From the NCBI RefSeq assembly GCF_006363815.1, contig NZ_RRYT01000032.1, positions 1,241-50,517 of the forward strand: DNA of 49,277 nucleotides, given 5' to 3'. Numbering within the stretch: position 1 is the first letter of the stretch; every line of letters starts with the position of its first letter. The position numbers were made by a program, and so were the translations under genes. Source of the stretch: Thermomonospora catenispora (lineage in GTDB: Bacteria; Actinomycetota; Actinomycetes; Streptosporangiales; Streptosporangiaceae). The notes below the pieces were generated by a model that searched no databases, had not been told where the DNA came from, and was given only the letters and a program-made list of their open reading frames with translations. Below, one piece after another: positions 336 through 19,345 of the stretch.

Positions 336-2797
336 GCAGAGCGAAGGCGCGCTCCAGCCGTCTGTCGGTGCGGTACTTCGACGACCGGATCCTGCTGACC
401 GACCAGGCGGCATGGGCCTACTTCCGGTTGCCGACGGTGTCGTACGAGTTCACCACCGGCGAGGAACGCGAGGCGCTGGCCACCAACATCACCATCGCGC
501 TGGCCGGGATCCGGATGCAGGACGCGGAGATCCACCTGCGGATCGCCCACCGGACCTACCCGGCGGCCGAGTGGGCGCGCAACCTGGACCGGACCTCCGA
601 CGGCGGGCCGGGCTGGCGCGAATACCTGGAGGAGATGTACGCCCACGTCTGGGCGCAGGATTTTTGGACCAAAGAGGTCTACCTCGGGGTGCGGCTCGGC
701 CCGCGCGGGATGGGCGCCCAGCTGTCCGGCGGGGTGCTCTCGCAGCTGTTCGGCCTCTACAAGCGCAGCGAGCAGATCCTCGGCATCGAGGACGACGCCA
801 TCGACCCCAAGGAGATCGACCGCTGGACCGAGCAGGCCGAACGGCTCGGGCGGGCGCTCGGCGGGTCGGCCCTGTACGCCCGGCACGCCACGGCGAACGA
901 GGTGGCCTGGCTGTTCCGGCACGCGGTGACCGGCTCGCTGAACGATCCGCCGCCCTCGGCGGTGCAGCGCCGCACCTGGGGCGCGGGGGAGATCGAGTCG
1001 CTGGTCGAGGGCGCCATCCACAACGGCCGTTCGTTCCTGCGGATGGAGCAGCCGGGCAGCGACGGCAGCGGCGGCGCGATCAGCTCCTCCTATGTGGCGT
1101 ATCTGAGCTTCGCCCGCTTCCCCGATCTGATGCCCTTCCCGGACGGGGAGCCGTGGCTGCACTTCGCCGACGCGCTGCCGTTCCCGGTGGAGATCAGCTC
1201 CCGGATGAAGCTGATCTCCCCGGCCAAGGCCTCCAAGGACGTCTCCCGCAAGCTCGCGCACGCCCGCGACATGGACCAGCACATCCGGGAGGCGGGCGCG
1301 GAGGCCCCCTTGGCGCTGGCCGAGCAGATCGACGCCGCCCGGATGCTGGAGCACGGCATCACCAAGGAGCGGCTGCCGTTCGTCTACGGCTGGCATCGGC
1401 TGATCGTGTCGGCGCCGTCGGAGGAGCTGCTGGCCCAGCGGGTGGACGCGGTGGTCGAGCACTACCGCGACATCGGCATCGACGTGGTCAACTCCACCGG
1501 CGACCAGTTCTCGCTGTTTTTGGAGTCGCTGCCGGGCGACCGGATCCGGCTGAACGCCTACGCCCAGCGGCAGCCGCTGCGCACCATCGCCGGCGGCATG
1601 CCGACCGCCACCGTGGACCTGGGCGACCGTCAGGACGAGGCCGGCAACGGCTGGGTCGGCCCCTACATCGGCGAGACGCTGGGCCGGGCCCGCTCCATCG
1701 TGCACTTCGACCCGCTGGTGGCGGCGGCCCGCAACCGGCCGACCGCGGTGGCGATCACCGGTGAGCCCGGCGGCGGCAAGACCACGCTGGCGCTGTTGCT
1801 GATCTATCAGATGGCGCTGCGCGGGGTGACGATCGCCGCGATCGACCCCAAGGGCGACGCCGAATCCCTGGTGGAGCTGCTGCGGTCCCGCGGACGCAAG
1901 GCGCGGATCCTGCCGCTGGGGTCGGCCGCCCCCGGCCTGCTGGACCCGTTCTCCTTCGACGACGACCTGGCCGCCAAGAAGACCATGGCCACCGAGACGC
2001 TGCGGCTGCTGCTGCCGCGGATGTCGGAGGAACGCGAGTCGGCGATGATCCAGGCCGTCGGCGCGGTGGCCAACGGCGAGCGCCCCTCGCTCGGCAAGGT
2101 CGTCGACTACCTGGAGGCCGCGCCGGACCCGGCGTCCAAGAACCTCGGCGCGGTGCTGCGGTCGATGTCGGAGATGCGGCTGGCCCGGCTGTGCTTCGAC
2201 CCCTCCGGCGGGGAGCGGATCGACACCGAGGGCTGGACCACCGTGTTCACCCTGAGCGGGCTGACCCTGCCGGACGCGACGATCTCCCGGGACGACTACT
2301 CCTATGAGCAGCGGCTGTCGGTCGCGCTGATGTACCTGGTCTCGCAGTTCGCCCGGCGGCTGATGCACGGGCTGGACCGCAGGCTGCCCAAGGCGATCTT
2401 CCTGGACGAGGCGTGGGCGATCACCTCCACTCCCGAGGGCGCCAAGCTGGTGCCGGAGGTGTCGCGGATGGGCCGGTCCCGCAACACCGCCCTGATCCTG
2501 GTCTCCCAGAACGCCGGGGACCTGCTGAACGAGCAGGTGACCAACTGTCTGTCGTCGGTGTTCTCGTTCCGCTCCTCCGAGCGGCACGAGGTCAGCAACG
2601 TGATGTCGCTGCTGGGCGTGGAGCCCTCTGAGGAGCACCAGGCCGTGCTGCGCAATCTGGGCAACGGCGAGTGCATCTTCCGCGATCTGGACGGCCGGGC
2701 CGGCCGGATCGGGGTGGATCTGATCTCCGAAGAGCTGCTGCGCCGGCTCGACACCAACCCCACCCGGGCTCACTCGTCGTCCCCCCTCACGATCTAG
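332..2797 (+). CDS. VirB4/TraC-type conjugation/secretion ATPase
   Basis: An 821-residue P-loop ATPase of the VirB4/TraC type, the cytoplasmic motor of type IV secretion and conjugation machines. A Walker A motif (GEPGGGKTT) lies near residue 477 and a Walker B (IFLDEAW) near residue 690, followed by the VSQN and RSSE motifs usual for this group. The N-terminal half is the substrate/membrane-interacting region. I chose the ATG at 332, not the in-frame GTG at 227, because it overlaps the stop of an upstream open frame and the protein then begins with typical sequence. The SD is weak (GGAGCTGGTGAG). The gene is followed after 11 nt by a VirB6-like gene. In the absence of relaxase or coupling-protein genes in the window, transfer of DNA is not shown; a chromosomal secretion role is equally possible. 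Confidence 0.85.
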   Translation: MSRAKARSSRLSVRYFDDRILLTDQAAWAYFRLPTVSYEFTTGEEREALATNITIALAGIRMQDAEIHLRIAHRTYPAAEWARNLDRTSDGGPGWREYLEEMYAHVWAQDFWTKEVYLGVRLGPRGMGAQLSGGVLSQLFGLYKRSEQILGIEDDAIDPKEIDRWTEQAERLGRALGGSALYARHATANEVAWLFRHAVTGSLNDPPPSAVQRRTWGAGEIESLVEGAIHNGRSFLRMEQPGSDGSGGAISSSYVAYLSFARFPDLMPFPDGEPWLHFADALPFPVEISSRMKLISPAKASKDVSRKLAHARDMDQHIREAGAEAPLALAEQIDAARMLEHGITKERLPFVYGWHRLIVSAPSEELLAQRVDAVVEHYRDIGIDVVNSTGDQFSLFLESLPGDRIRLNAYAQRQPLRTIAGGMPTATVDLGDRQDEAGNGWVGPYIGETLGRARSIVHFDPLVAAARNRPTAVAITGEPGGGKTTLALLLIYQMALRGVTIAAIDPKGDAESLVELLRSRGRKARILPLGSAAPGLLDPFSFDDDLAAKKTMATETLRLLLPRMSEERESAMIQAVGAVANGERPSLGKVVDYLEAAPDPASKNLGAVLRSMSEMRLARLCFDPSGGERIDTEGWTTVFTLSGLTLPDATISRDDYSYEQRLSVALMYLVSQFARRLMHGLDRRLPKAIFLDEAWAITSTPEGAKLVPEVSRMGRSRNTALILVSQNAGDLLNEQVTNCLSSVFSFRSSERHEVSNVMSLLGVEPSEEHQAVLRNLGNGECIFRDLDGRAGRIGVDLISEELLRRLDTNPTRAHSSSPLTI

Positions 2798-2808
2798 GAG
2801 GTCTGCCC

Positions 2809-5232
2809 ATGAACGGGTCCTGGCGGAGCCGCGTCCGGCCGGCGGGAGCGCGCGGTCGCGTCCGGCTGCCGGCCGTCAGGGGCGGACCCGCCCGGCGGCC
2901 GGCGGGGTTGCAGCGTTCTCCGGCCGAGGGCATCGCCCCGCCCCGGCGCGGCCGGCGCTTCGGCCTGTCCCGCCGGCGCCGCCGCACCGCCCTGCTGCTG
3001 GCGGTGCTGGCGCTGTTCATGCTCAGCCCCGTCGCCCCGGCCGCGGCCGACCCGTTCGGCGGCGACCCCTGCCGTCCGGCCGACAACCCGGCGCCGGAGA
3101 TGTACGGCGCCGGGTACGAAGGCATGATCAAGCCGCCCGGGTATCCGAGCGAGGAGCTCAAGCGGACCCCGCCCGAGAAGCTGACCTACTACGACCGGTA
3201 CGGGACGGCGGGGCAGTTCTGGTACGCGGTCGACATGGGCTGCGCGGACGCCATGAGCATGATGGGCAACGCGCTGGCCAACACCACGTTCACCCTGGTC
3301 CGGGTGATCGACCGCACGACCATCACCGTCTACCAGGCCGCCGCCTCCGAAGCGCTGCTGGGCTGGCTGAAGAACACCGTCGACGACGTGATCAGTGACA
3401 TGGGCGAGACGTTCAACGCCCGTTACTGGTCGTGGGTGGTCATCCTCGGCGCGATCTGGCTGGCCTGGTGGGGACTGGTCCGCAAACGGGCCAGCCGCGT
3501 CACCGAGGGCACCATCTGGATGGTCGCGGCGATGGTCGCGTTGATCTGGCTGGTGGCCAGGCCCGCCGACTTCACCACCTTGGGCACCAAGGTGTCGGAG
3601 GCCACCAGCGCGGCCTTCAACGCCGCGCTGCCGCAGGCCAGCAACAAGGGTGCGGTCTGCATCCCCTCACCCGACGGCCAGAACCCGGCGGCCTCTCCCG
3701 ACGTCGACGCCACCACCCGCAACGCCAACGGCCTGTGGGTGGCGCTGGTCTGCAAGCCCTGGCTGATGGGCGAGTTCGGCACCGCCGATCCCAACGCCAA
3801 GATCGTCCGGGACAACGCCGACAAGCTGCTGTGGTCCCAGGCGGTCGACCTGCCTGAGGCGCACGGTCAGACACGGCTGGACCTGAGCAAGAAGGCCGAC
3901 GCCTACAAGCAGGTCGCCGAGAACATCAAAGAAGAGCACCCCGGCGTCTACCCCCTCTTCCAGGGCAAGAACTGGACGAGCCGGCTGGCGGTGGCGTTCG
4001 GCGCGCTGTTCGCCGCGCTGGTCGCCGGGCTGCTGATCCTGGTGATCGCGATCGCGCTGATCGTGGTGAAGATCGCGTTCCTGCTGCTGCTGGTGGCGGG
4101 CCCCATCTTCCTGGGCATCGGCATCCATCCGGGCATCGGCCGGGTGATCGCCATGCGCTGGCTGGAGCTGCTGCTGTCCATGCTGCTCAAGCAGGCGGCG
4201 CTGATCGGCGTGCTGGCCCTGCTGCTGTGGACGTACGGGCTCATCCTGAGCGAGGGCCTGCCGTGGGGCCTGCAGATCCTGCTGATCTCGCTGGTGACGC
4301 TCGCGGCGTTCATCTACCGCAAGCCGTTCCAGCACCTGTTCTCCGCGGTCGGCTACTCCGCCGTCGGAGCGCGCGAGAAGAGCGAGGTCCATCTGAACAA
4401 GTCGATCGCCGAGGCGCGCAAGAACACCGTGGGAGCCGCCACCGCCGTGGTGCCGGGAGTGGCCGGATACCGGCTGGCGCGCTGGGCCAAGCGCGATCCG
4501 GCCGTCGAGGGCACCGCGCTGGGCGACGCCGCCGCAGGGGCGACCGCCGCGGCCGAGCGCCGAGGGGCCCTCGCCCAGGCCGACGGGGCCGACGGCGACA
4601 CCGCCGACGCGACCGCATCGGGCAAGGGCCGAGGCGGCACGGCCATCGCGGCGGGCCGGCCGCGCTCCAGCGCGCCGCCGCTCAACCTGCCCACCCGCGG
4701 CAGGTCCTCGACCGGCACCGGGGATTCCGGCGGGTCGGACGGCGCCGCCTCCGGCGGAGGGACGGGCAGGCCCGCCTCTTGGGTGAGCGGCCGGATCGGA
4801 CGCGGGTCCGGCGGCGGTGAGGACGGCGGCGAGTCCGGAGGGCTCGTGGGCGCCGGCGTCATCGGAGGACGCGCCGCCGGCGGCGGAGGCCGTTCGCGCG
4901 GCGAGGGGTCCGGATCCGGAGGGGCGTCGTCCGGCGGCCGGGGGAGCGGAGGCGACTCCTCCGGAGGCCGGCGCTCCGGCGGGGACTCCGGTCGCGGCAG
5001 GCTCGGCGGAGGGTCCGGCTCCTCCGGCGGATCCGGCGCGTCGCGGCGCAACGGCCGCCCGTCCGACCCCGCCGCCGGAGTGCCGCGGCCCAGGACCGGC
5101 GAGGGCGGCGGGACCTCCGGCGGCGACCGCAGGACCCCGCCCCCGCTGTGGGGGACCGGCCCCCGCGACGAGGGCCCGCCGATGCCGTTCTGGCTGCGTC
5201 CGGTCGAAGACGCAAGTGAACGAGAGGACTGA
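2809..5232 (+). CDS. VirB6/TrbL-like polytopic membrane protein
   Basis: An 807-residue membrane protein. An Arg-rich N-terminus of about 60 residues precedes a signal-like hydrophobic segment ending in APAAADP. A Cys-containing extracytoplasmic region follows, then about six further membrane segments, including long runs of Leu/Val/Ile between about residues 390 and 510. The C-terminal ~250 residues are a low-complexity Gly/Ser/Arg tail. The topology and position after the VirB4-like ATPase match the VirB6/TrbL channel component of type IV secretion systems; that is inference from context and architecture. The start at 2809 is set by a perfect AGGAGG (2796-2801) that overlaps the stop codon of the ATPase gene. 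The stop overlaps the ATG of the next gene (TGATG-type junction). Confidence 0.7.
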   Translation: MNGSWRSRVRPAGARGRVRLPAVRGGPARRPAGLQRSPAEGIAPPRRGRRFGLSRRRRRTALLLAVLALFMLSPVAPAAADPFGGDPCRPADNPAPEMYGAGYEGMIKPPGYPSEELKRTPPEKLTYYDRYGTAGQFWYAVDMGCADAMSMMGNALANTTFTLVRVIDRTTITVYQAAASEALLGWLKNTVDDVISDMGETFNARYWSWVVILGAIWLAWWGLVRKRASRVTEGTIWMVAAMVALIWLVARPADFTTLGTKVSEATSAAFNAALPQASNKGAVCIPSPDGQNPAASPDVDATTRNANGLWVALVCKPWLMGEFGTADPNAKIVRDNADKLLWSQAVDLPEAHGQTRLDLSKKADAYKQVAENIKEEHPGVYPLFQGKNWTSRLAVAFGALFAALVAGLLILVIAIALIVVKIAFLLLLVAGPIFLGIGIHPGIGRVIAMRWLELLLSMLLKQAALIGVLALLLWTYGLILSEGLPWGLQILLISLVTLAAFIYRKPFQHLFSAVGYSAVGAREKSEVHLNKSIAEARKNTVGAATAVVPGVAGYRLARWAKRDPAVEGTALGDAAAGATAAAERRGALAQADGADGDTADATASGKGRGGTAIAAGRPRSSAPPLNLPTRGRSSTGTGDSGGSDGAASGGGTGRPASWVSGRIGRGSGGGEDGGESGGLVGAGVIGGRAAGGGGRSRGEGSGSGGASSGGRGSGGDSSGGRRSGGDSGRGRLGGGSGSSGGSGASRRNGRPSDPAAGVPRPRTGEGGGTSGGDRRTPPPLWGTGPRDEGPPMPFWLRPVEDASERED

Positions 5233-5888
5233 TGGAGCTCTCCGATAGCCGGCGCAAGCTGCTGTTCGCAGGGCTGGTGGTGGCGTTGACCGCGGTCGGG
5301 GTCTACCTGACCGTGGTCGGCCCGCCGGGCGACGAGGAGCCCGCGCAGAGCCCGGCCGCCCGGGAGACCGCCCTGACGCCTCCCGGGCAGCCCGGCCCGG
5401 CCGTGCCGTCGGTGACGCCGCCCGGCATCTCCTCCACCGTCTCTCCGGACGACTTCGACATCTACCGGCTGCTGCCGTTCTCCAAGCGGGACTTCGCCGC
5501 CGCGGCCGACTTGGCCCAGCGGTTCACCGCCGCGTACGGCACCTACCGCTACGACGAGGACCCGCAGGCCTACATGGCCCGGTTGGAGCCCATGGCCACC
5601 GAGGAGCTCGCCGTCCAGATCGCCCGCGGCGCGTCCGCGCCGGGCCTGCTGGAGCAGCGGCGCAGCGAACAGGTCGTCGCGCAGAGCACCGCCACCCTCG
5701 ACGCCATCCGCGACATCGAGGCCAACTCGATCATCTTCCTGGTCACCGGCAACCAGCAGCTCACCCGGAACGGCCGGACCGGCCACGAGAGCAAGCGGTT
5801 CGCGGTCACGGTGGCGCGGGACGGCAACGCCCTGCGGGTCTACGCGTTCGAACCCGCCGACGCCGGCCAGGCCGGGGACACCGGATGA
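5232..5888 (+). CDS. Single-pass membrane protein, TcpC/VirB8-like (putative)
   Basis: A 218-residue protein with a short cytoplasmic start, one membrane segment at about residues 9-28, a Pro-rich spacer (about 35-75) and an extracytoplasmic domain of about 140 residues. The size, topology and place between a VirB6-like gene and a wall hydrolase suit a VirB8/TcpC-like periplasmic bridge. I see no diagnostic motif, so the family name is contextual. Its ATG shares bases with the TGA of the upstream gene, so translation is probably coupled. Confidence 0.55.
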   Translation: MELSDSRRKLLFAGLVVALTAVGVYLTVVGPPGDEEPAQSPAARETALTPPGQPGPAVPSVTPPGISSTVSPDDFDIYRLLPFSKRDFAAAADLAQRFTAAYGTYRYDEDPQAYMARLEPMATEELAVQIARGASAPGLLEQRRSEQVVAQSTATLDAIRDIEANSIIFLVTGNQQLTRNGRTGHESKRFAVTVARDGNALRVYAFEPADAGQAGDTG

Positions 5889-5935
5889 TCGCCGGCGCCC
5901 GGGCCAGGGGAACCGACGGCAGGTGAGGGAGGCGG

Positions 5936-6988
5936 ATGAGACGGCAGCTGCTGCTCCTGGGGGCCGCCGCCGCGGTCGGCGCGCTCTTCACGGTCCTCAT
6001 CGTCATGCCGGTGTTCATGAGCGCCGGGCAGTTCCTCTACGGCGGGGGCACCTCTGACGCGTTCTGCATCGACACCGGCGAGGCGGCGCGACAGCCCGAG
6101 GAGACCGCAGACGCCCGCGCCATCCCGGCCGAATACCTGGAGCTGTACAAGAAGGCCGGGCGGGAGTACGGGCTGCCGTGGAACGTGCTGGCCGGGATCG
6201 GGAAGGTGGAGACCAATCACGGCACCTCCACCCTCCCCGGCGTCTCGTCGGGCGAGAACTACGCGGGCGCGGGCGGCCCCATGCAGTTTTTGGAGTCGAC
6301 CTGGAAGGCGTTCGGGGTCGACGGCAACAAGGACGGCAAGAAGGACCGCTACGACCCCGAGGACGCCATCCCCTCGGCCGCGCGCTACCTCAAGCACAAC
6401 GGGGCCCCGGAGCGGATGCGCTCGGCGCTGTACGCCTACAACCACTCCTGGGAGTACGTCGACCTGGTGCTGTCGTGGTCCAAGCGCTACGGCGGCGGCG
6501 ACTTCCAGATCGTGCAGGCCGACGGGCCGCTGTGCTCCGACACCGAGGGCCTGCCGGAGAACGTCGAGGACCTGGTCCGGCGCATCATCGACTTCGCCAT
6601 GGCCCAGCGCGGCAAACGCTACATCTTCGGCGCCAACGGACCGGACGCCTGGGACTGCTCCAGCCTCGTCCAGGGCGCCTACCGGTCGGTGGGGCTGACC
6701 ATCCCCCGGACGACCTGGGAGCAGTGGCCGTTCGGCGTGAAGATCCCCAAGGGCGAGGAGCAGCCGGGCGATCTGGTGTTCTTCAACTCCGGCCCGGGGA
6801 CCTCCTGGGACCGTCCCGGCCATGTGGGCCTGGTCATCGGCAACGGCAAGATGATCGTGGCCCGCTGCGCCACCTGCGTGCCCAACATCGGCGTGCAGAG
6901 CTACAAGCGGTCCGACTGGGTCGGGGTCACCCGCCCGCTGGCCAAGCCGGAGGTGCAGCAGCAGCTCGCAAGGCTCCGTTCCCGCTGA
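5936..6988 (+). CDS. Bifunctional wall hydrolase: lytic transglycosylase-like + NlpC/P60
   Basis: A 350-residue membrane-anchored peptidoglycan hydrolase. An N-terminal membrane segment (about residues 4-28) is followed by a transglycosylase-like domain (about 60-195) with a likely catalytic Glu in GKVETNHG (near residue 92), a GPMQF motif and a YAYNHS motif. A C-terminal NlpC/P60 domain (about 220-345) has the catalytic Cys in DAWDCSS (C241) and His in GHVGLV (H296). Such VirB1/TcpG-type enzymes open the wall for type IV secretion machines in Gram-positive bacteria, which fits its place at the end of this cluster. A good SD (GAGGGAGG) sets the ATG at 5936. Confidence 0.85.
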   Translation: MRRQLLLLGAAAAVGALFTVLIVMPVFMSAGQFLYGGGTSDAFCIDTGEAARQPEETADARAIPAEYLELYKKAGREYGLPWNVLAGIGKVETNHGTSTLPGVSSGENYAGAGGPMQFLESTWKAFGVDGNKDGKKDRYDPEDAIPSAARYLKHNGAPERMRSALYAYNHSWEYVDLVLSWSKRYGGGDFQIVQADGPLCSDTEGLPENVEDLVRRIIDFAMAQRGKRYIFGANGPDAWDCSSLVQGAYRSVGLTIPRTTWEQWPFGVKIPKGEEQPGDLVFFNSGPGTSWDRPGHVGLVIGNGKMIVARCATCVPNIGVQSYKRSDWVGVTRPLAKPEVQQQLARLRSR

Positions 6989-10759: not shown

Positions 10760-11158
10760 TCAGCGCAGTGTACGGCTGTCCCGGATGTCCTTGATGTCCT
10801 CGCTGATCTTGAAGACCACGATCATCAGCTCCAGCCACACCCGGGTCAGCATCACATACAAAAACCACCCGATCGGCGCCAGGATGATCGCCAGCAGGCC
10901 GACGGGCTGCTCGTTGATCATCGCCACGAACCCGAGGACCACGTAGAACGCGGCCAACAGCGTGAGCAGCACCACGCTGAGGATGTACAGGAACTTGATC
11001 AGCTTCGGCGCGACGAAGTTGTCGAACGTGAAGTCGAACAGGGCGCCGAAGAAGCTCTTGTCGTTGTCGTAACGCGGGCCGGCGGGAAAGCCGTAACCGC
11101 CGGGCTGCGCCGGATAGGGCTGCTGCCAACCGCCGGGCTGACCGTAGGGGGTACCCAT
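10760..11158 (-). CDS. DUF4282 membrane protein (copy 1)
   Basis: A 132-residue protein with a Pro/Gln/Gly-rich cytoplasmic start and a DUF4282 domain. The KSFFGALFDF start of the domain is followed by two long membrane segments (about residues 55-80 and 85-110) and a charged tail. The function of DUF4282 is unknown. It is paralogous to the gene at 18857-19345 (shared pattern FGALxDxxFxxxVxPKLI). AGGAG before the ATG supports the start. A strong hairpin (11277-11305) separates it from the upstream operon, so it probably has its own promoter within 11159-11276. Confidence 0.8.
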   Translation of the reverse strand: MGTPYGQPGGWQQPYPAQPGGYGFPAGPRYDNDKSFFGALFDFTFDNFVAPKLIKFLYILSVVLLTLLAAFYVVLGFVAMINEQPVGLLAIILAPIGWFLYVMLTRVWLELMIVVFKISEDIKDIRDSRTLR

Positions 11159-11276: not shown

Positions 11277-11305
11277 GGTGACCGGACCGTGTCGGTCCGG
11301 TCACC
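11277..11305 (-). terminator. Terminator of the kinase/AAA+/FHA operon
   Basis: A perfect 12-bp stem (GGTGACCGGACC / GGTCCGGTCACC) with loop GTGTC starts 36 nt beyond the stop of the FHA gene on the - strand. There is no T-run. It separates the six-gene operon from the first DUF4282 gene. Confidence 0.65.
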
Positions 11306-11341: not shown

Positions 11342-12613
11342 TCAGCCCAGCTGTACGGTGCCGGTGACGTCGGCGGCCAGCCGCAGCTCGTCGCCGTCGC
11401 GCAGCGGGGCCTCGACCCCGCGCGGCAGACGTTCGCCGTTGACGAACGTCCCGTTGGTGGAGCCCTCATCGCGCACCCAGGCGGTGCCCGACGGGTCCAG
11501 CCACACCGTCGAGTGCCGCCGCGACACGTTGTCGAACTGGGTGAACGTGGAGGCCACCGGGGACTGGCCGGCGTCGCGGCCGAGCACCAGGTGCTGACCC
11601 ACGGAGATCTTCAGCTCCCCGGTGGGGAACACCACCCGGAGCACCGGGCTCTTCTGACGCACCGGCCGCAGGCAGGAGTCGCACTGCACGGCGGACGGGT
11701 TGCTCAGCACCGCCTCGCAGTGCGGGCACATGAACGCGGTGCTGTCGGCTCCGCGCTGGGGCTGCTGCGGCTCGTCCGGCGGCAGCAGCGTCGCCTCCCG
11801 GCCGTGCGGCGGGGGAGTGACCGACCGGCCGCCGTGCTGCGGAGGAGGCGGCATCTGGTGGTCCCCCGGACCGGGCGGCATGTGCTGTCCGCCCTGCTGC
11901 TGCGGCCCGGGCTGCTGGTGGGGCGCCGGCGGCCATCCCCCCTCGGCGGGCTGCCCGCCGCCCTGGGGAGGCGGCGCCCAGGCGTCGTGCCCCTGCTGGC
12001 CCTGCTGGCCGCCCTGGGACTGCCAGCCTCCGTCGGGCCCCTGCTGAGCGCCCTGCTGCCACCCGGCGTCGGGACCGCCCGGCCGGTTTCCGGGCTGCCA
12101 TCCCTGCTCGGGCGTCTGCGGCTGGCCGCCGTGCTGCTGCCAGCCGCCCGCCTCAGGAGACTGCTGGCCGCCCTGAGCGGGCGACCACTGCGGTGCGGGC
12201 GGCTGCCCCTGCTGCTGTCCCCACGGAGCGCCCTGCCCGTCGGGCTGCCCCATCTGCTGGCCCTGGTGCTGCGCGGGCTGCGGGGACCAGCTGTCCTGGC
12301 GCTGGGGCTGCGGCGGAGCAGGCTGCGGAGACCATCCGTCCTGGTGCTGCGGCTGCGGCGGGGCGGGCTGCGGCGGAGCAGGCTGCGGAGGCCACCCGTC
12401 CTGGTGCTGCGGCTGCGGCTGCGGCGGAGGCCCGTACTGCTGGTTGTACGGGGGCGCGGGCGGCTGCGGCACGTGCTGCCCATGGTTCCCGGGGATGGGG
12501 CCGGGGCGGGGCGTGGTGGCGCCGGCCTTGGCCAGATTCGCCCCGCAGGACATGCAGACCAGGTCACCGGGCTGGAACGGCTCCTCACAGATGGGACAGG
12601 TGGGATTGCTCAT
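11342..12613 (-). CDS. Zinc-ribbon, Pro/Gln-rich, FHA-domain protein
   Basis: A 423-residue cytoplasmic protein with three parts. A zinc ribbon begins at CPIC and ends at CMSC (Cys6, 9, 20, 23). A very long Pro/Gln/Gly-rich linker spans about residues 30-270. A second four-Cys ribbon (CPHC...CDSC) is followed by a C-terminal FHA domain with the phosphothreonine-binding signature: LGRD, SRRHS and STNGTFVNG. FHA domains bind phosphothreonine peptides, so this is a likely reader of the kinase encoded in the same operon. The zinc ribbons and linker resemble scaffold proteins. Its ATG overlaps the stop of the radical SAM gene (ATGA). It is the last gene before the terminator. Confidence 0.85.
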   Translation of the reverse strand: MSNPTCPICEEPFQPGDLVCMSCGANLAKAGATTPRPGPIPGNHGQHVPQPPAPPYNQQYGPPPQPQPQHQDGWPPQPAPPQPAPPQPQHQDGWSPQPAPPQPQRQDSWSPQPAQHQGQQMGQPDGQGAPWGQQQGQPPAPQWSPAQGGQQSPEAGGWQQHGGQPQTPEQGWQPGNRPGGPDAGWQQGAQQGPDGGWQSQGGQQGQQGHDAWAPPPQGGGQPAEGGWPPAPHQQPGPQQQGGQHMPPGPGDHQMPPPPQHGGRSVTPPPHGREATLLPPDEPQQPQRGADSTAFMCPHCEAVLSNPSAVQCDSCLRPVRQKSPVLRVVFPTGELKISVGQHLVLGRDAGQSPVASTFTQFDNVSRRHSTVWLDPSGTAWVRDEGSTNGTFVNGERLPRGVEAPLRDGDELRLAADVTGTVQLG

Positions 12614-13335
12614 GACCGCCAGGACACCTCCCCCGCACGCACTCCGGCCTTCTCCAGCATCGACGCAAGGCGGTCCATGTCGCCTCGTCGCGGGATCCCG
12701 ATGTAGTACACCCGCCTTCCCTCCGGCCCCTCGTCAACCGCTACCTGCACCCGTGGTCGTCCTCCCTCGCCGGACACGGCGTCAGTCGGCCCGTCGTCGC
12801 CGAGCGGCGCCCCGTACCGCTCGCGACCCAGGGCGGTCAATGGCACGACACGCTGGTTCGCCGATCCCCTCCACAGTAGTGAGCGTCCGGCGGGGTCGCC
12901 CCCCTCGACGCCCACGGGATTGAGCCGGTCGATGTACGGCCCCGTGATGACGGCGTCGCATAGTTTCAGGATGTCGCGAGTCGCCGCCGAACGCGAGAGC
13001 CGTGAGTGGACATATCCACTGTAGACGAGTATGTCCGTCGGGAAGTCTGCCCGCCACCGGTGAATCCCGCGCAGCAGCGCCTCCAGCGCCTCCGGCTGCT
13101 GGAACGGCTCTCCGCCGGAGATGGTGACTCCGTCGGGCCGTTCCGGCAGCGACTCCAGCCAGCCCAGCACCGCCTCCACCGGCACCGCGGTCGCCGGATC
13201 CGGCTCCCAGGTGTCGCGCGACAGGCAGCCGGGGCAGCGCAGCGTGCAGCCCTGCGTCCAGATCCCCGCCCGCACGCCCGGCCCCAGCGTGGTGACCGGA
13301 TAGTGCGCCTTGGCCAGCAGCAGCGGCGGGGTCAC
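12610..13335 (-). CDS. Radical SAM protein, NrdG/PFL-activase-like
   Basis: A 241-residue protein with the CX3CX2C cluster motif (CTLRCPGC, about residues 24-31) that binds the 4Fe-4S/SAM centre. GVTISGGEP (about 63-71), a LVYSGY strand, a GPYIDRLNP segment and a WRGSANQRV segment are typical of the NrdG-like group. That group makes glycyl radicals on partner enzymes, but no glycyl-radical enzyme is present in the window. The start is a GTG at 13335 that overlaps the AAA+ stop (GTGA), and the stop overlaps the FHA start. The C-terminal ~70 residues extend past the usual NrdG length. Its substrate is unknown; placement suggests it modifies or senses something for the AAA+/FHA complex. Confidence 0.85.
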   Translation of the reverse strand: MTPPLLLAKAHYPVTTLGPGVRAGIWTQGCTLRCPGCLSRDTWEPDPATAVPVEAVLGWLESLPERPDGVTISGGEPFQQPEALEALLRGIHRWRADFPTDILVYSGYVHSRLSRSAATRDILKLCDAVITGPYIDRLNPVGVEGGDPAGRSLLWRGSANQRVVPLTALGRERYGAPLGDDGPTDAVSGEGGRPRVQVAVDEGPEGRRVYYIGIPRRGDMDRLASMLEKAGVRAGEVSWRS

Positions 13336-15248
13336 TGCAGTTCCAGTTCGACGATGCTGCCGCGGCGCGCGATCCCGGACACGACGATCTCCTCGTCGCC
13401 CGTCAGCTCCCGGTCGAACAGCGCCCGCGCCAACGGGTTGACGAAGTAGGACTCCAGGGCCATTCCGATGCCCCGGCCGCCCTTGTCCAGCTCGCTGGTG
13501 CACCACTCGCGCAGCGTCTTGCGCACCTCGCCGTCGATGGTCAGCGTCAGCCGGTGCTCCTCGGCCACCCGGCGGCAGATGTTGGCCAGCTGCAGTTCGA
13601 AGATCTGGTTGGCGGCCTCGGCGGAGATGAAGTTGAACACCACGATGTTGTCGCCGAACCGGTTGAGCAGCTCCGGCCGGTTCAGCACCGTGGTGAAGTG
13701 GTCGGAGATCGCGCCCTTGAGCTTGGCCTCGATCTCGTCATACGACATGCCGGGGTGGATGTTCTGCACCCGGGCGCCGGGGGAGAAGCCGCCGTCCAGC
13801 CGGCCGCCGGGGTTGCCGGGCGCGTCCACGTACATCCCCAGATTCGAGGTGAAGATCAAGATCGCCTCGGAGAAGTGCACCGTGTTGCCGCGCCCGTCGG
13901 TGAGCCGGCCGTCCTCCAGGATCTGGAGGAACTTGTCCAGGATCCGCGGGTGCGCCTTCTCGATCTCGTCGAACAGGATCACCCGGAACGGATCCTCCCG
14001 GATCGCGTTGGTCAGCTCCCCGCCGGCCTCATGCCCCACATAGCCGGGCGGCGCCCCGATCAGCCGCTCCCCGGCGTGGTCGGAGGAGAACTCGCTCATG
14101 TCGAACCGCAGGTAGGCCGACTCGTCACCGAAGATCAGCTCGGTGATCGCCTTGGCCAGCTCGGTCTTGCCCACCCCGGTCGGCCCGGCGAAGAACAGCA
14201 CCCCGCGCGGCCGGCTGCCGGACCGGGTGGCCTGCGCCCCCGACAGCCCCAGCACCGCCCGCTTGAGGATGTCCAACGTCTTGGTGACCGCCTGCGGCTG
14301 GCCGACCACCCGCTCGGGCACCTTGCTCTCGCCCTCCAGCACCCGTTTGCGCAGGTGGCCGCGGCTCCACGGGTTGTCCAGCACCCCCAGCTTGTAGGTG
14401 CGCACCGCGTCCGGCAGATCGGCCAGCTTGACCCCGCGCTCCCGGGCCAGCCGGGTGATCTCGATCATCGACTGCAGGGTCAGCCCGTCGGCCTGCTCGG
14501 CGAACGCCTCGCACGCCTCGATCGCCGCCGGGTCGGCGGACACGTCACGCACCCCGAACGCCCGCGCCAGCAGCCGGGCCGTCTCCTGCCGATCGCCCAG
14601 ATGCGGCCGGGGGATGGTGATCTCCCGGATGTTGTCGTTGCCGGCGGTCAGCCACGGCGGCAGGTCGCCGGGCCGCTCCACCAGCCACAGGACCGGGTTG
14701 TACAGCGGCTTGGGCCGCGCCCCGGGCACCACCACCGGACGGGCGGTGCGCGAGAGCTTCTCGCAGTAGCGGAAGAAGTCCCGCTCGGCGGGCTCCAGAT
14801 CGGTGGGGCTGCGGGCGATCCGCGAGGCCGAGTCGATCACGAACGCCGCCCGGATCTTCTCCGCCGGGCGGGCCACCGCCGCCAGATACCCGGTCAACGC
14901 CTCCAGCGAGGGCTTCTCCTCCGGCTTGATCTTGCCCAGCAGCCGCTCGGCCGCCGCGGCCGCCTCCTTCCCGATCTCGTCGGGGGTGTCGGGGTACACC
15001 AGCAGCCCGTCCACCGGGTCGTAGATCACCAGGCAGGAGAACCCGCTGGAACGCAGCGCCTCCCACAACAGGTCGCGCAGCGGCAGCAGCCGCGTCGGGC
15101 CCCCCTCGGGCGGCGGCGGGGCCAGGAAACTGTCGTACAGGTTGCCCGACAGCACGTACTGCGAGTGCACCGACAGCGTGGCGTCCAGCTCCCGGATGAA
15201 CGCCGGCCACCCCTGTAGCCGTCCCCCCAGTGTCGGCGACTCCATCAT
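13332..15248 (-). CDS. Clp-like AAA+ ATPase with degenerate first AAA domain
   Basis: A 638-residue AAA+ protein. Residues about 300-635 are a ClpA/ClpB second-module-like ATPase: Walker A GPTGVGKT (355-362), pore loop GYVG (402-405), Walker B ILFDEIEKAH (424-433), sensor-1 TSN (467-469), an RF arginine-finger region (NRFGDN) and a C-terminal small domain. The first ~290 residues look like an AAA fold without a Walker A motif (FVIDSASRI resembles a Walker B strand), so this part is probably structural. There is no ClpB N-domain, no coiled-coil M-domain and no ClpP-binding loop that I can identify, so a remodelling role without ClpP is more likely. The first of two ATGs (15248) overlaps the coiled-coil gene's stop. 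Confidence 0.85.
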   Translation of the reverse strand: MMESPTLGGRLQGWPAFIRELDATLSVHSQYVLSGNLYDSFLAPPPPEGGPTRLLPLRDLLWEALRSSGFSCLVIYDPVDGLLVYPDTPDEIGKEAAAAAERLLGKIKPEEKPSLEALTGYLAAVARPAEKIRAAFVIDSASRIARSPTDLEPAERDFFRYCEKLSRTARPVVVPGARPKPLYNPVLWLVERPGDLPPWLTAGNDNIREITIPRPHLGDRQETARLLARAFGVRDVSADPAAIEACEAFAEQADGLTLQSMIEITRLARERGVKLADLPDAVRTYKLGVLDNPWSRGHLRKRVLEGESKVPERVVGQPQAVTKTLDILKRAVLGLSGAQATRSGSRPRGVLFFAGPTGVGKTELAKAITELIFGDESAYLRFDMSEFSSDHAGERLIGAPPGYVGHEAGGELTNAIREDPFRVILFDEIEKAHPRILDKFLQILEDGRLTDGRGNTVHFSEAILIFTSNLGMYVDAPGNPGGRLDGGFSPGARVQNIHPGMSYDEIEAKLKGAISDHFTTVLNRPELLNRFGDNIVVFNFISAEAANQIFELQLANICRRVAEEHRLTLTIDGEVRKTLREWCTSELDKGGRGIGMALESYFVNPLARALFDRELTGDEEIVVSGIARRGSIVELELQ

Positions 15249-16399
15249 GTTTCGCGCTCCCGCCCACGCTCACGTGCTCGTTGCCTGGTCCGCGCTCTAG
15301 TCTGCCGTGCCCGCGAGACCACCGGCAGCTCGTGCTCCCCCGGCTCGATCCGCCAGGTCACCGTCGCGGTCACCCCCGCGGCCGCCAATCGCCTGCGGGC
15401 CTCCTCGAACGCCTCACACCACTGGTGCTCCCGTTCCACGTCCAGGCGTCGGTCCTCCTCGCTCTCCGGTGCCCGGGTCCGCACGATCGCGGCGCGGATC
15501 GTCCGGTCGTCCTCCACCCGCATCCTGACCCGATGGTCGGGCCAGGCCCCGCGGCTGAGCACCACCTCGCCGTCCCGCGCGGTCAGCGTCTCGAACCCGG
15601 TGTCGACCTCATATCCCAGCTCCTCGAACGCGGCGGTCACCGCGTCCTGCACGTACCGGCGCTCGGCCTCGGCCTGCGCGGCGGCGTCCCGCAGCTCCGC
15701 CTGCCGGCGCCGCTCCTCGCGGCGGGCGGCGGTGCGCTCGTTGGCCTGCCGCACCCGCAGCCGGACCTCGGTCAGCACCGCCTCGGCCTCGGCGTCGGTG
15801 CCGGCCTGGGCGAGCCGTCCGGCGGCCTCGGCGACGAACTCCCGGTCGGCGGGGGAGACGTCCGGGGCCAGCCGTCCCAGCACCTTGGCCAGGGTCGCGG
15901 CGCGCTCGTGCCGCCGCGTCTCCCCCTGCCGGTCCTCCCGCCCCGGAGCGGCCGGGTCGTCGAGCCCGAGGCGCAGCCCTTCGGCGGGGAGCGCGAAGAC
16001 GCGGGCGGCGACGTCCGCCGCGACGTGCTCGCTGATCCGCCGCCGCGCCTCGGCCAGCGCCCGGTCGGTCGCCTCGCACCAGGCCTCCAGCTCCTCGGGG
16101 GAACGGTCGCCGGGCGGCAGCGGCGCCGGGAGTGGGACCTGCGTCCCCGCCTCCTGCTGCGCCTCGGCCAGCGCGGCGATCTGGGCGTTGCGGTCGATCA
16201 CCTCCCGCACCGCGCGGTCCTGGCGTTCGATCTCGGCCAGCGCCGCTGCCCGAGCGTCCGCCCGTCCCTGGGCCGCGGCGGCCAACGCCCGCGCCCCGGC
16301 CGCGGTGAGTCCCGCGGCCTTCCCGGCGACGCGCGTCACCCCCAGGCTGAGGACGACCGCCGCGTCCAGCACGACGTCGGCCTCCACCCCGCTACTCAT
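15245..16399 (-). CDS. Coiled-coil protein of unknown function
   Basis: A 384-residue protein that I do not recognise. It is rich in Ala, Glu and Arg and mostly helical. Coiled-coil-like stretches lie at about residues 50-85 and 195-245, separated by a Pro-rich segment (about 90-100). A compact alpha/beta domain (about 245-350) and a highly basic tail follow. No signal peptide or membrane segment is evident. It sits between the membrane kinase and the AAA+ gene, overlapping the latter by 4 nt. An adaptor or substrate of the AAA+ ATPase would be a reasonable guess, but only from context. Confidence 0.7.
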   Translation of the reverse strand: MSSGVEADVVLDAAVVLSLGVTRVAGKAAGLTAAGARALAAAAQGRADARAAALAEIERQDRAVREVIDRNAQIAALAEAQQEAGTQVPLPAPLPPGDRSPEELEAWCEATDRALAEARRRISEHVAADVAARVFALPAEGLRLGLDDPAAPGREDRQGETRRHERAATLAKVLGRLAPDVSPADREFVAEAAGRLAQAGTDAEAEAVLTEVRLRVRQANERTAARREERRRQAELRDAAAQAEAERRYVQDAVTAAFEELGYEVDTGFETLTARDGEVVLSRGAWPDHRVRMRVEDDRTIRAAIVRTRAPESEEDRRLDVEREHQWCEAFEEARRRLAAAGVTATVTWRIEPGEHELPVVSRARQTRARTRQRARERGRERET

Positions 16400-16421
16400 C
16401 GACAGCTCCTCCAGGCCTCGG

Positions 16422-18806
16422 TCAGGCCGTTCCGAGGGATTCCCGCTCGGCGCGCTCGTGCTCGATTCTCCAACGGTGCAGCCGCATCCCCGCCACGACC
16501 GCGTGCACGACCGGCGCCAGCACCAGCACCGCCAGCCACAACAGACTCACCGCCGCGGTGAGCAGGGTCACCAGTATCAAGATCATCGCCAGCGGGACGA
16601 TCAGCAGCAACACCAGCAGCGGCCCGCAGCCGCGCCGTCCGGTGGCCCGCGCCGACGCCGACAGCGTCTGCGAGGCCCGCGACAGTCCTCGCCCGCTCGC
16701 GTTCAGCACCTTCGACAGCCACGACCACGGCCCGTGCGGCAGATAGTCCGCCCCCTGCCGTCTGGCCAGCAGCACCTCCGCCCCGCACTGCCCGGCCCAG
16801 GCGAGCACCGATACGACCGTCAAAAGGACGGTGGGAGGCCCCGAAGAAGGCTGAACACCAGGGAGAGTGGGACCTTGGGGCCCGTCCCCGCCGCTGAGCG
16901 CGCTCACCACCCAGCTGCCGAGCAGCCACAGCGCCAGCAGCGGCAGGGTCCAGGCCACCGCGCGGGCGGTGGCGGCGCCGCGGCCGGCCAGCCGCCGGTG
17001 CTCCCGTTCGGCCCAGTGCCGGGCGCGTTCGGCATGCCGCCGCTCGGCGGACCGGCGGTCCTGGGCGAGCGCCTGGGCGGCCAGCACGGCGTCGGGGGCC
17101 GCCCGCACCACCGCCAGCAGCCGCAGCGGATCGTCCGCGCCGGCCCAGGCGACCAGTTCCGCGAACCAGGGCACCGGCTCCTGCACCGAGGCGCGGGCCC
17201 GGGCGGCGGACTCGGCCAGCGTCCGGGCGGTCTCGGCGGGACGGGCGGCCAGCGCCAGCAGGGTCAGCAGCACGACCGGGGGATCGTCGCCCGTCCGGTC
17301 GCCCGCCTCCGGCAGGCGGACCATGCCCCCGAACGGCGGGGGCGCCTGCGGCCCCGTCCCTGCGCGCAGCCAGGCCGCCAGCCGGTTCCACTCCGCGGCG
17401 TGGGCGCGCCACCGGTCGTCGATGCCGCGCAGCTCCTCCGCCCCCTGGAAGGCGGCCAGCTCGGGGAGCAGCCGGTGCTCCCACAGCGCCCGCCCGATCA
17501 GGCAGGCCGTGCGGTGGTCGGGGTGGCGCGGGTCTCCGGCGAGCGCCGCCAGGTTCGGCAGGTCCTCGGGGGCGACCCGGCGGCCCAGATAGTGCGGCGG
17601 CAGGGTCGGGTCCAGCCAGCGCACCAGATGCAGCACCTTGACGTCCGGCGGCAGCGAGGTCGCCAGATAGCCGTCGATCAGCGTGATGCGGCTGTCGTCG
17701 GGGAAGGCGGCCAGCCACTCGCGCAGCGCCCGCCACGCCTCTCCGTGCTCGCCGCGGGCGAAGAAGTAGCGCGCCGCCTCCTCCCACCGTTCCACCAGGG
17801 CGCGGGCCAGTTCGGCGCGATCGGTGAACCGGCGTCCGGCGAACGGCAGTCCCGGCCCCGAGGGCGGGGGCTGCTGCTCGGCGGCCACCGGCGGGGACTC
17901 GCCGCGGAGCCAGGCGGCGACCTGTTCGCCCGTCCAGCGGCGCCGCGGGTCGCGGGTCAGCAGCCCCTGGCACAGCAGCCGCAGCCGGGGGTCGGCGATG
18001 TCGGAGTTGTCGATGGGGCGGGTGGCCAGATGGTCGACCACCACCGTCTCGCTCAGCCCCGCGAACGGTGCGCGGCCGGTGACCAGCTCCCGCACGATCA
18101 TGCCGAGCGACCACCAGTCCCGGGCGGGGGAGACCTGCCCGGACAGCGACTCGGGGGCGGCGTAGGCGAGGGTGCGGGAGGAGGAGGCGAACACCACGCT
18201 CTCATCCAGCACCTTGCTCAGCCCGAAGTCGGTGATCGCCACCCGGAGCGGGTCGGTGCTCAGCAGCAGCACGTTCTCCGGCTTCAGGTCCCGGTGCACG
18301 ATCCCCGCCCGGTGCAGCGCCTCCAGGCCCGCGGTGAGCTGGGCGGCGATCTCGGCGACCGCGGCGGGCGGGACGGGTCCGGTCAGCAGGGCGCGCAGGT
18401 TCCCGGCCGGCGCGTACTCCGACAGCTCGTAGTCGCGGCCGTCGGCGTGCCCGGTCTCCAGGATCCGCATCACGTGCGGGGAGTCCAGGGCGGGCAGCTT
18501 GGCCCACACCTCGCGGTCGGCGGCGTACCCCCGGCGGAACACCTTGACCACGTACCGCCGGCCGGCGGCGTCGCGGACCAGCAGCAGATCCGACTCGGCC
18601 CCCTGCACCGGCAGCTCGCCCTCGACGGCGAACCGCTCGGCCAGCGCGCCCGGCAGCCGCAGCAGCGGGTCGGCGGACGCGGCGGAGCCGTCCCGGCGGG
18701 TGGCGTCCGGGACGCGGGGGCCGGGGACGGCGGGGGTCGGCGGGTCGCGGTGCGTCGCTCCGGGGTCCCGCCGCGTCGACTGCGGGAACTCCTCGAACTC
18801 GGTCAC
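16422..18806 (-). CDS. Membrane Ser/Thr protein kinase with C-terminal TM bundle
   Basis: A 794-residue Hanks-type kinase. After a Pro-rich start the kinase domain spans about residues 55-310: ATP-binding Lys88 (VVKVF), HRD (171-173) within HRDLKPEN, DFG (193-195) and APE (217-219). The Gly-rich loop is poor (VQGAES instead of GxGxxG). A helical region of about 300 residues follows, then about four membrane segments between 645 and 775. Unlike PknB-type kinases it has no extracellular PASTA or sensor domain. The start is GTG (18806). It lies 22 nt upstream of the coiled-coil gene and 50 nt downstream of a DUF4282 gene, and likely phosphorylates partners read by the FHA protein. Confidence 0.88.
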   Translation of the reverse strand: MTEFEEFPQSTRRDPGATHRDPPTPAVPGPRVPDATRRDGSAASADPLLRLPGALAERFAVEGELPVQGAESDLLLVRDAAGRRYVVKVFRRGYAADREVWAKLPALDSPHVMRILETGHADGRDYELSEYAPAGNLRALLTGPVPPAAVAEIAAQLTAGLEALHRAGIVHRDLKPENVLLLSTDPLRVAITDFGLSKVLDESVVFASSSRTLAYAAPESLSGQVSPARDWWSLGMIVRELVTGRAPFAGLSETVVVDHLATRPIDNSDIADPRLRLLCQGLLTRDPRRRWTGEQVAAWLRGESPPVAAEQQPPPSGPGLPFAGRRFTDRAELARALVERWEEAARYFFARGEHGEAWRALREWLAAFPDDSRITLIDGYLATSLPPDVKVLHLVRWLDPTLPPHYLGRRVAPEDLPNLAALAGDPRHPDHRTACLIGRALWEHRLLPELAAFQGAEELRGIDDRWRAHAAEWNRLAAWLRAGTGPQAPPPFGGMVRLPEAGDRTGDDPPVVLLTLLALAARPAETARTLAESAARARASVQEPVPWFAELVAWAGADDPLRLLAVVRAAPDAVLAAQALAQDRRSAERRHAERARHWAEREHRRLAGRGAATARAVAWTLPLLALWLLGSWVVSALSGGDGPQGPTLPGVQPSSGPPTVLLTVVSVLAWAGQCGAEVLLARRQGADYLPHGPWSWLSKVLNASGRGLSRASQTLSASARATGRRGCGPLLVLLLIVPLAMILILVTLLTAAVSLLWLAVLVLAPVVHAVVAGMRLHRWRIEHERAERESLGTA

Positions 18807-18856
18807 TTACCGCTCCGTCGATGCCGCTGTGACTGCGGTGAGCCTAACGCGCCGGT

Positions 18857-19345
18857 TCAGATCTTCTCCTTGATGACCCGCAGGTGTTCGACCCCCTTGA
18901 AGCGGACGACCACCGCCTCCATCAGGATCCGCACCATCAGCGCCTCGAACAGCCAGACCAGCGGGGAGGCGAGCATCATGATGACCCCCCAGGCCCAGCC
19001 GTCGTCCCAGGAGGCGATCCACAGCCCGAGGAACAGGAAGATCGTGCACTGCAGGGTGATCAGCAGCAGCGCGACGATGTACCACAGCCGGATCAACTTG
19101 GGGGTCACCAGGTGCTCGAAGCGCGTGTCCAGCAGCGCGCCGAAGACGCCTTTCTCCCGAGGGAACGGCCGTGGCGGCACGCCGGCGCCGTAGGGGCCGG
19201 TGGCGTACGGCGCGTTCTGGGGGGCGCCCTGGGGAGCGCCTTGGGGGTGCGGGGGCCGCGGTGCGGTTCGGGGATCTCGGCCCGGTCCGGCGCCCCCTCC
19301 GGAAGCCGGTCCCTGTCCGGGGCTGGGGGGCGAGGGGTTGGTCAT
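18857..19345 (-). CDS. DUF4282 membrane protein (copy 2)
   Basis: A 162-residue paralogue of the protein at 10760-11158. A Pro/Gly/Gln-rich N-terminus (about 55 residues) precedes a DUF4282 domain with a GVFGALLDTRF start and two long membrane segments, ending in a charged helix. It is the first gene of the apparent six-gene operon, 50 nt before the kinase. The function is unknown. Its presence next to a kinase with a membrane bundle suggests a membrane partner. Confidence 0.8.
   Translation of the reverse strand: MTNPSPPSPGQGPASGGGAGPGRDPRTAPRPPHPQGAPQGAPQNAPYATGPYGAGVPPRPFPREKGVFGALLDTRFEHLVTPKLIRLWYIVALLLITLQCTIFLFLGLWIASWDDGWAWGVIMMLASPLVWLFEALMVRILMEAVVVRFKGVEHLRVIKEKI

Follow-up and report, generated by a model that had tools for sequence, protein, structure and literature searches.

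The threonine-phosphorylation pathway of type VI secretion consists of PpkA, PppA, Fha and ClpV, and we know of no place for a radical S-adenosylmethionine (SAM) protein in that control scheme; nor, to our knowledge, does any system combine phosphothreonine (pThr) signalling, ATP-driven unfolding and radical SAM chemistry. FtsH ternary conflict systems, as described by Kaur et al. 2020 (PMC7159879), pair an inactive first with an active second AAA+ domain, include a radical SAM protein in some cases, and use FtsH-type AAA+, vWA and MoxR components. In this study, we analyzed a 49,277-nucleotide (nt) stretch of Thermomonospora catenispora DNA (contig NZ_RRYT01000032.1, positions 1,241 to 50,517), the whole of which is called the window here, and in particular a block of genes on its reverse strand that encodes a DUF4282 protein, a Ser/Thr kinase, a coiled-coil protein (CC), a Clp-type AAA+ ATPase, an NrdG-like radical SAM protein (RS) and a zinc-ribbon/FHA protein, with a second DUF4282 gene beyond it. 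We propose that the membrane-anchored Ser/Thr kinase gates a machine for protein unfolding and radical modification, a reading to which we give an even chance. On the sequence side, it draws on the conservation of the block, the intact catalytic motifs, a link between kinase tail repeats and the FHA gene, a first AAA+ domain (D1) without a Walker A motif, an invariant Cys, and the absence of NrdD matches.

The block and the type VI pathway have in common a kinase, an FHA protein, a Clp-type AAA+ protein, a PP2C-like phosphatase (in relatives of the block) and, as proposed here, the phospho-gating of a machine. These four domain kinds would fit a type VI-like secretion machine controlled by threonine phosphorylation, an explanation that is nevertheless scarcely credible: the block adds RS and CC, its AAA+ protein, at 197.2 bits, falls well short of the ClpV model TIGR03345 (cut-off 884.95), and a search of the T. 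catenispora genome for the VipB sheath gene gave no match, with a positive E. coli control. The initial annotation, which had set the block apart from type VI secretion, agrees with this result. FtsH ternary systems resemble the block in a dead/active AAA+ pair, a radical SAM protein and a multi-gene, NTP-dependent layout. However, the second AAA+ domain of the block is Clp-type (AAA_2 plus ClpB_D2-small), not FtsH-type, and Pfam calls no vWA or MoxR domain in the block's seven proteins; membership was therefore rejected. Regarding the Mokosh and Hhe defence systems, plasmid relatives of the CC/AAA+/RS core carry MkoA-like or Hhe-like superfamily 1 (SF1) helicases, in one form as a kinase-helicase fusion, whereas the window block has no helicase or nuclease, and its CC and RS have no PADLOC match. 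Mokosh membership was likewise rejected, the MkoA model being listed, among the seven proteins, only for the kinase, at its kinase region 57-303. In line with the earlier view of an undescribed function, no published pathway with the same gene set was found in the open-licence literature, although subscription papers may hold one. As far as this limited literature search goes, the gene set is new as a system, and its parts, except for CC, come from known families.

Conservation and distribution of the block

A pattern scan of named genomes gave at least 595 stretches, at least 485 of them confirmed, and the best 80, which represent the nearest relatives rather than a census, were retained. Fifty-two of the 80 have more than 4.5 kb on either side of the AAA+ frame (28 were dropped), and family matches within 8 kb of the AAA+ gene on the same strand were counted in them. 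CC, RS and the kinase lie near the AAA+ gene in 48 of the 52 loci, and FHA was matched in all 26 actinobacterial versus none of the 26 proteobacterial ones. Related blocks occur in beta- and gammaproteobacteria and on one Clostridial plasmid, and thus in at least three phyla; the Clostridial plasmid locus (L011) contains kinase, CC, FHA, RS, AAA+ and phosphatase genes together with a second kinase. Therefore, the idea that these genes form a single conserved unit holds across several phyla, homologues among the nearest relatives occurring mostly together rather than separately, and a chance neighbourhood was rejected on the basis of this co-occurrence. Five further loci from a sampling of genomes of two phyla (L185, L186, L187, L189 and L210) have AAA+ and RS and also match FHA (weakly in L186 and L210, with 21 and 24 bits), along with CC and/or the kinase, in varying gene orders. 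A PP2C-like open reading frame (ORF) is present in L186, L187, L189 and L210, called by blastp match to one protein that is itself just below the Pfam cut-off (PP2C_2, 21.4 versus 24 bits).

The AAA+ family occurs sporadically: with a profile of its N-terminal region, matches were obtained in 6 of 396 Actinomycetota genomes, T. catenispora included, and in 9 of 398 Pseudomonadota genomes, including the search centre and two short or weak matches. Besides T. catenispora, four of the Actinomycetota hits combine AAA+, RS and an FHA match with CC and/or the kinase, three of these four also having the PP2C-like ORF, and the remaining one is L188, which is considered below. CC was found in all five members of the genus (T. 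catenispora included) and in 8 of 41 sampled related genomes overall. In 23 of the 26 loci from Actinomadura, Spirillospora and related bins (L023-L047, L050), the block adjoins typA as it does in the window, and the contigs of the other three end near the block; it is therefore vertically inherited in Actinomadura and its kin. In the two Actinoallomurus loci (L048, L049), typA is not beside the block. Among viral contigs, the best 80 of 100 AAA+ relatives at the D2 level were kept, all but one at 24-36% identity; the closer analysis covered L103 and L104.

Component proteins and the kinase-FHA link

The AAA+ ATPase (638 amino acids (aa), 13332..15248, reverse strand, as are all features of the block; AAA_2 2.8e-44) retains the Walker A and B, pore Tyr, sensor and Arg residues of its second domain (D2) in 79 of 79 rows, and by these residues the protein belongs to the Clp/Hsp100 motors in a broad sense. 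No Walker A (GxxxxGK[ST]) is present in the sequence of its D1-like region. Because D1 lacks this motif while those of D2 are intact, the protein is predicted to be a single-engine unfoldase, and the earlier picture of a remodelling machine would depend on this Clp-type motor. An AlphaFold2 model with a mean predicted local distance difference test score (pLDDT) of 85.7 matches ClpC/ClpB across both rings (best E 2.7e-25, template modelling (TM) score about 0.5). The D2 ring motifs, pore loop and fold are thus common to ClpB/ClpC and the block protein; in contrast, Pfam calls no N-domain or M-domain in the latter. A full ClpB chaperone was rejected, given 244 bits with TIGR03346 (cut-off 1232) and the first ring without Walker A. 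The AAA+ profile comprised 31 of 32 representatives, including the window's own, with L100 left out.

The kinase (794 aa, 16422..18806; Pkinase 9.4e-35) consists of an N-terminal TxRD tail, the kinase domain, a conserved post-kinase region and, by hydropathy, C-terminal hydrophobic segments (616-639 and 724-777). Its catalytic Lys, HRD Asp and DFG Asp are conserved in 64-66 of 66 rows, as would be expected of an active Hanks-type kinase. The pThr-pocket Arg, Ser, His and Asn of the FHA protein (423 aa, 11342..12613), in which a low-complexity linker precedes the FHA domain, are kept in 36 of 36 rows, consistent with a phosphothreonine reader. The designation of this protein as zinc-ribbon/FHA holds for the FHA domain (8.8e-14); its zinc ribbon, which is based on visible CxxC pairs, falls below the Pfam cut-off (DZR E 0.0016). 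The kinase tail in the window reads STRRD...ATHRD...ATRRD, containing three T-x-R-D repeats (TRRD, THRD, TRRD; 18690..18776), and shuffled kinase tails have a mean of 0.00-0.10 TxRD-type motifs. Canonical motifs for FHA interaction include pTxxD (PMC6375734), and the TxRD tail repeats are proposed as putative phospho-docking sites for the FHA protein. With the C-terminal hydrophobic segments, they add sequence evidence to the suggestion of the initial annotation that the system is membrane-signalled and phospho-dependent.

When one kinase per locus with a score of at least 350 was considered (n=62), 28 had at least two TxRD motifs and a linked FHA gene, 29 had neither, four had repeats only and one had FHA only; repeat presence and FHA linkage thus agree in 57 of 62. 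Three of the repeats-only cases (L034, whose contig ends within an FHA gene, L041 and L102) are on contigs that end near the block. In L054, the FHA gene is linked and the kinase tail has TRRE/THRE instead of TxRD, and lineages distant from the window show TQRDx5 (L187), TRLD/TQLD/TELD (L185) and TxRFDx4 (L210). A relaxed motif, set after L185, L210 and L054 had been seen, gave 33 kinases with both features, 35 with neither, five with the motif only and two with FHA only (n=75, including two repeated contigs, L190 = L041 and L191 = L037). None of 21 other kinases of the T. catenispora genome has two or more TxRD motifs in its tail (21 parsed of 30 fetched, with 57 matches in the genome). Betaproteobacterial block kinases, for which no FHA gene was matched, instead have CxxC zinc-ribbon pairs fused to them; in two of these kinases, no FHA domain is called by Pfam. 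Two side observations concern these proteins: the block kinase of a Competibacteraceae locus (L098, 3148-6150) ends in WD40 repeats, not hydrophobic segments, and the linker of the FHA protein of L185 (7266-7928) carries a threefold DTAH repeat, perhaps further phospho-sites.

RS (241 aa, 12610..13335; Fer4_12 6.6e-25, Radical_SAM 4.1e-7) has CX3CX2C in 77 of 77 rows and the GGE and GSxNQ residues in 75-77 of 77, the rows being those with at least 100 bits and excluding the plasmid-type relatives called type C below. A seven-row alignment including four type C rows also keeps the three Cys. RS thus has the cluster motif of a radical SAM enzyme. A redox or iron sensor, in place of an enzyme, would suit a cluster protein encoded within a signalling operon and without a known substrate; with motifs retained in such an enzyme-like manner, we think it unlikely. 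By model, RS is closest to NrdG (TIGR02491, E 1.7e-24), and it shares with NrdG and the pyruvate formate-lyase activases the radical SAM core and CX3CX2C. However, that it is an ordinary NrdG activating anaerobic ribonucleotide reductase is extremely improbable, because its 86.5 bits are below the cut-off of 126.1, NrdD (PF13597) was matched in none of 25 genomes (T. catenispora and 24 relatives; controls positive), and no glycyl-radical domain was matched in the T. catenispora genome. Radical SAM enzymes frequently mature the precursors of ribosomally synthesized and post-translationally modified peptides, which raises the alternative that RS modifies a small precursor peptide handled by AAA+ and CC. 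This is very unlikely, since the genes either overlap or are separated by gaps of only 50 nt (DUF4282-kinase) and 22 nt (kinase-CC), so that no precursor gene of ordinary size is hidden in the block, which is the region the precursor search covered; Pfam also calls no SPASM or RRE domain in the block proteins. As the block offers no room for such a gene, the substrate of RS is more likely a block protein.

CC (384 aa, 15245..16399) has long helices followed by a conserved C-terminal alpha/beta domain (residues 262-360, 15320..15616) with D320, E324, W327, C328, G342 and G354. It has no match in Pfam, NCBIfam or PADLOC, and its AlphaFold2 model (mean pLDDT 83.4) has no Foldseek hit at E<=0.001 in PDB (best E 0.18) or BFVD (best E 0.13). 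C328 is present in 83 of 83 aligned rows, including a few duplicate contigs, and is also invariant in 45-row and 39-row alignments. Divergent CC proteins of the other types have, by eye, a Cys at the start of the matching helix.

Proposed mechanism and cellular role

In the mechanism we propose, a signal that may come from the membrane, with DUF4282 helping to sense it, would cause the kinase to phosphorylate Thr residues of its own TxRD repeats, and the zinc-ribbon/FHA protein would dock at the resulting pThr-x-x-Asp sites, a docking that the PP2C-like phosphatase of some relatives would undo. Docking would assemble CC with a Clp-type AAA+ hexamer, of which the first ring would be dead and the second would thread the client. 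The target of the NrdG-like RS would then be either one of the system's own proteins, with the invariant-Cys domain of CC as the likeliest, or the client being threaded. CC, AAA+ and RS would form a constant core, and kinase/FHA/PP2C or, in plasmid relatives, helicase/nuclease would be exchangeable input or output parts. We infer every physical contact in this scheme, as well as what RS acts on, which client is threaded and what the system does for the cell. If true, it would describe a conserved multi-phylum system uniting pThr signalling, ATP-driven unfolding and radical SAM chemistry, and the kinase tail repeats render its first step testable.

Several findings weigh against this reading. 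Blocks are incomplete in L048 and L049 (without linked CC and kinase), L092 (without kinase) and L097 (without RS or kinase near AAA+); L188 combines RS and AAA+ with no more than a weak kinase match, and no RS was detected adjacent to the AAA+ relatives L211, L212 and L015. As for the kinase-FHA link, 27 of the 28 concordant positives are actinobacterial, the rule was made after the tails had been inspected, and related rows cannot count as independent. A true exception is L057, with repeats present and no FHA match in its 20.6-kb locus, while the Clostridial L011 has FHA without TxRD, its kinase tails repeating other Thr motifs. No FHA was matched in betaproteobacterial members, so the core can do without docking; the FHA model was built from the same families and could overlook a strongly diverged gene. 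Concerning CC, the type A and type C profiles gave an hhalign probability of 1.6%, which is not significant, so the Cys shared across types is read by eye, and this Cys could be structural or catalytic rather than the RS substrate.

On plasmids and in some other genomes, the AAA+/RS core and a CC-like protein are joined to helicase/nuclease partners (types B and C), the window's form being type A. Type B has a fusion of kinase, DUF4011, SF1 helicase and MTES_1575 nuclease (domains called in L010), which matches Hhe/PDC-S37; its relatives by blastp are L009, L209, L207 (no separate RS row listed) and, in part, L208. Type C (L012, L013, L014 and L016, and L206 by blastp) has an SF1 helicase matching Mokosh MkoA (7.6e-102 in L012 and 1.1e-99 in L016) and a PIN_4 protein. 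In a quick AAA+ tree, which gave long-branch warnings and in which rows of unknown context were set to type A by default, type C forms a single clade (SH-like approximate likelihood-ratio test (SH-aLRT) 100), with type B placed next to the window's type A. Undibacterium curvum (G437) carries both a kinase type A locus (L075) and a helicase-PIN type C locus (L206). A contig from a viral collection (L104) has a form with helicase, CC, AAA+ and RS, and no PIN match is listed for it. A viperin-like defence role was rejected, RS of the L012 plasmid giving weak pVip matches (7e-6) and RS of L060 or the window giving none. The plasmid relatives tie the core, though not the window form itself, to defence-like effectors. 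They also offer a route to possible new defence systems, in which the CC and RS parts have no dedicated PADLOC 2.0.0 model as searched here.

Two roles would be compatible with the same mechanism. An anti-phage or anti-plasmid conflict system, phospho-controlled in the window's version, is possible, though less likely than not: plasmid CC/AAA+/RS relatives sit with the MkoA-like helicase and PIN_4 or with the Hhe/PDC-S37-matching fusion, the distribution is patchy and one species has both forms, and AAA+ D2 matches the PADLOC models PDC-M37B and DolB along part of their length, although this may merely reflect Clp kinship. However, the window block has no nuclease or toxin gene, its CC and RS match nothing in PADLOC, and the fixed site beside typA in Actinomadura and kin is unlike a defence island. 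That inheritance at one locus would instead favour a housekeeping regulator of stress or envelope proteostasis, in which the kinase reads the state of the membrane and AAA+ remodels a membrane client; hydrophobic segments occur in both the kinase and DUF4282, and the two DUF4282 genes of the genome flank the block. This role, too, is plausible and somewhat doubtful, because the block is sporadic elsewhere, the Actinoallomurus loci lack the typA neighbour, and DUF4282 is confined to part of the actinobacterial members. Going beyond the kinase-gated machine, CC/AAA+/RS might be a general unfold-and-radicalise engine coupled to exchangeable modules (the pTxxD/FHA phospho-switch, or plasmid helicase-nuclease effectors), in which the AAA+ ring would open or thread the client for modification by RS and the invariant Cys of CC would serve as substrate or relay. 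This extension is speculative and, in our view, rather unlikely; if true, signal-gated protein machines of a new class would exist, one branch serving immunity and another housekeeping.

Gene layout and neighbouring genes

All six ORFs of the initial annotation were recovered, co-directional on the reverse strand, and Pfam matched its domain calls for DUF4282, kinase, Clp-like AAA+, radical SAM and FHA, CC having no Pfam match. Three junctions with 4-nt overlaps (ATGA, GTGA, ATGA) tie CC, AAA+, RS and FHA together, as had been noted. The shared promoter is not borne out, given that the sole sigma-70-like site on this strand (20041-20012) is about 670 nt upstream, within the next gene. The strong terminator is supported in part: a 13-bp hairpin follows the FHA gene (11277..11305; -30.1 kcal/mol, z -6.6) and is a probable terminator, with 0 of 200 shuffles as good, but a consensus scan requiring a T-run omitted it and found terminator-like sites no commoner than in shuffles (2 versus 1.9).

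The first gene of the block encodes a small DUF4282 membrane protein (162 aa, 18857..19345; PF14110 9e-19) with hydrophobic segments within 79-147. A second DUF4282 gene (132 aa, 10760..11158), whose product is 32% identical to the first, sits between the hairpin and typA, outside the coordinates of the initial annotation; these are the only two DUF4282 matches in the genome assembly, one on each side of the block. DUF4282 is present in 19 of the 26 full-flank actinobacterial loci, and no match to the second one is listed next to typA in Actinomadura loci.

Some minor observations were also made by inspecting the neighbouring genes. In Contendobacter (L100, 4920-6893), a MoxR-like AAA+ gene, recognized by eye, is upstream of the RS gene. 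The AAA+ neighbour in L211 and L212 begins with MS(G/A)TPKYS, and its matching helix contains a Cys. In the window, positions 2671-6988 encode a TrbL/VirB6-like membrane protein and a cell-wall enzyme with SLT plus NlpC/P60 domains; such genes are near typA in many Actinomadura loci and look like part of a conjugation-type module.

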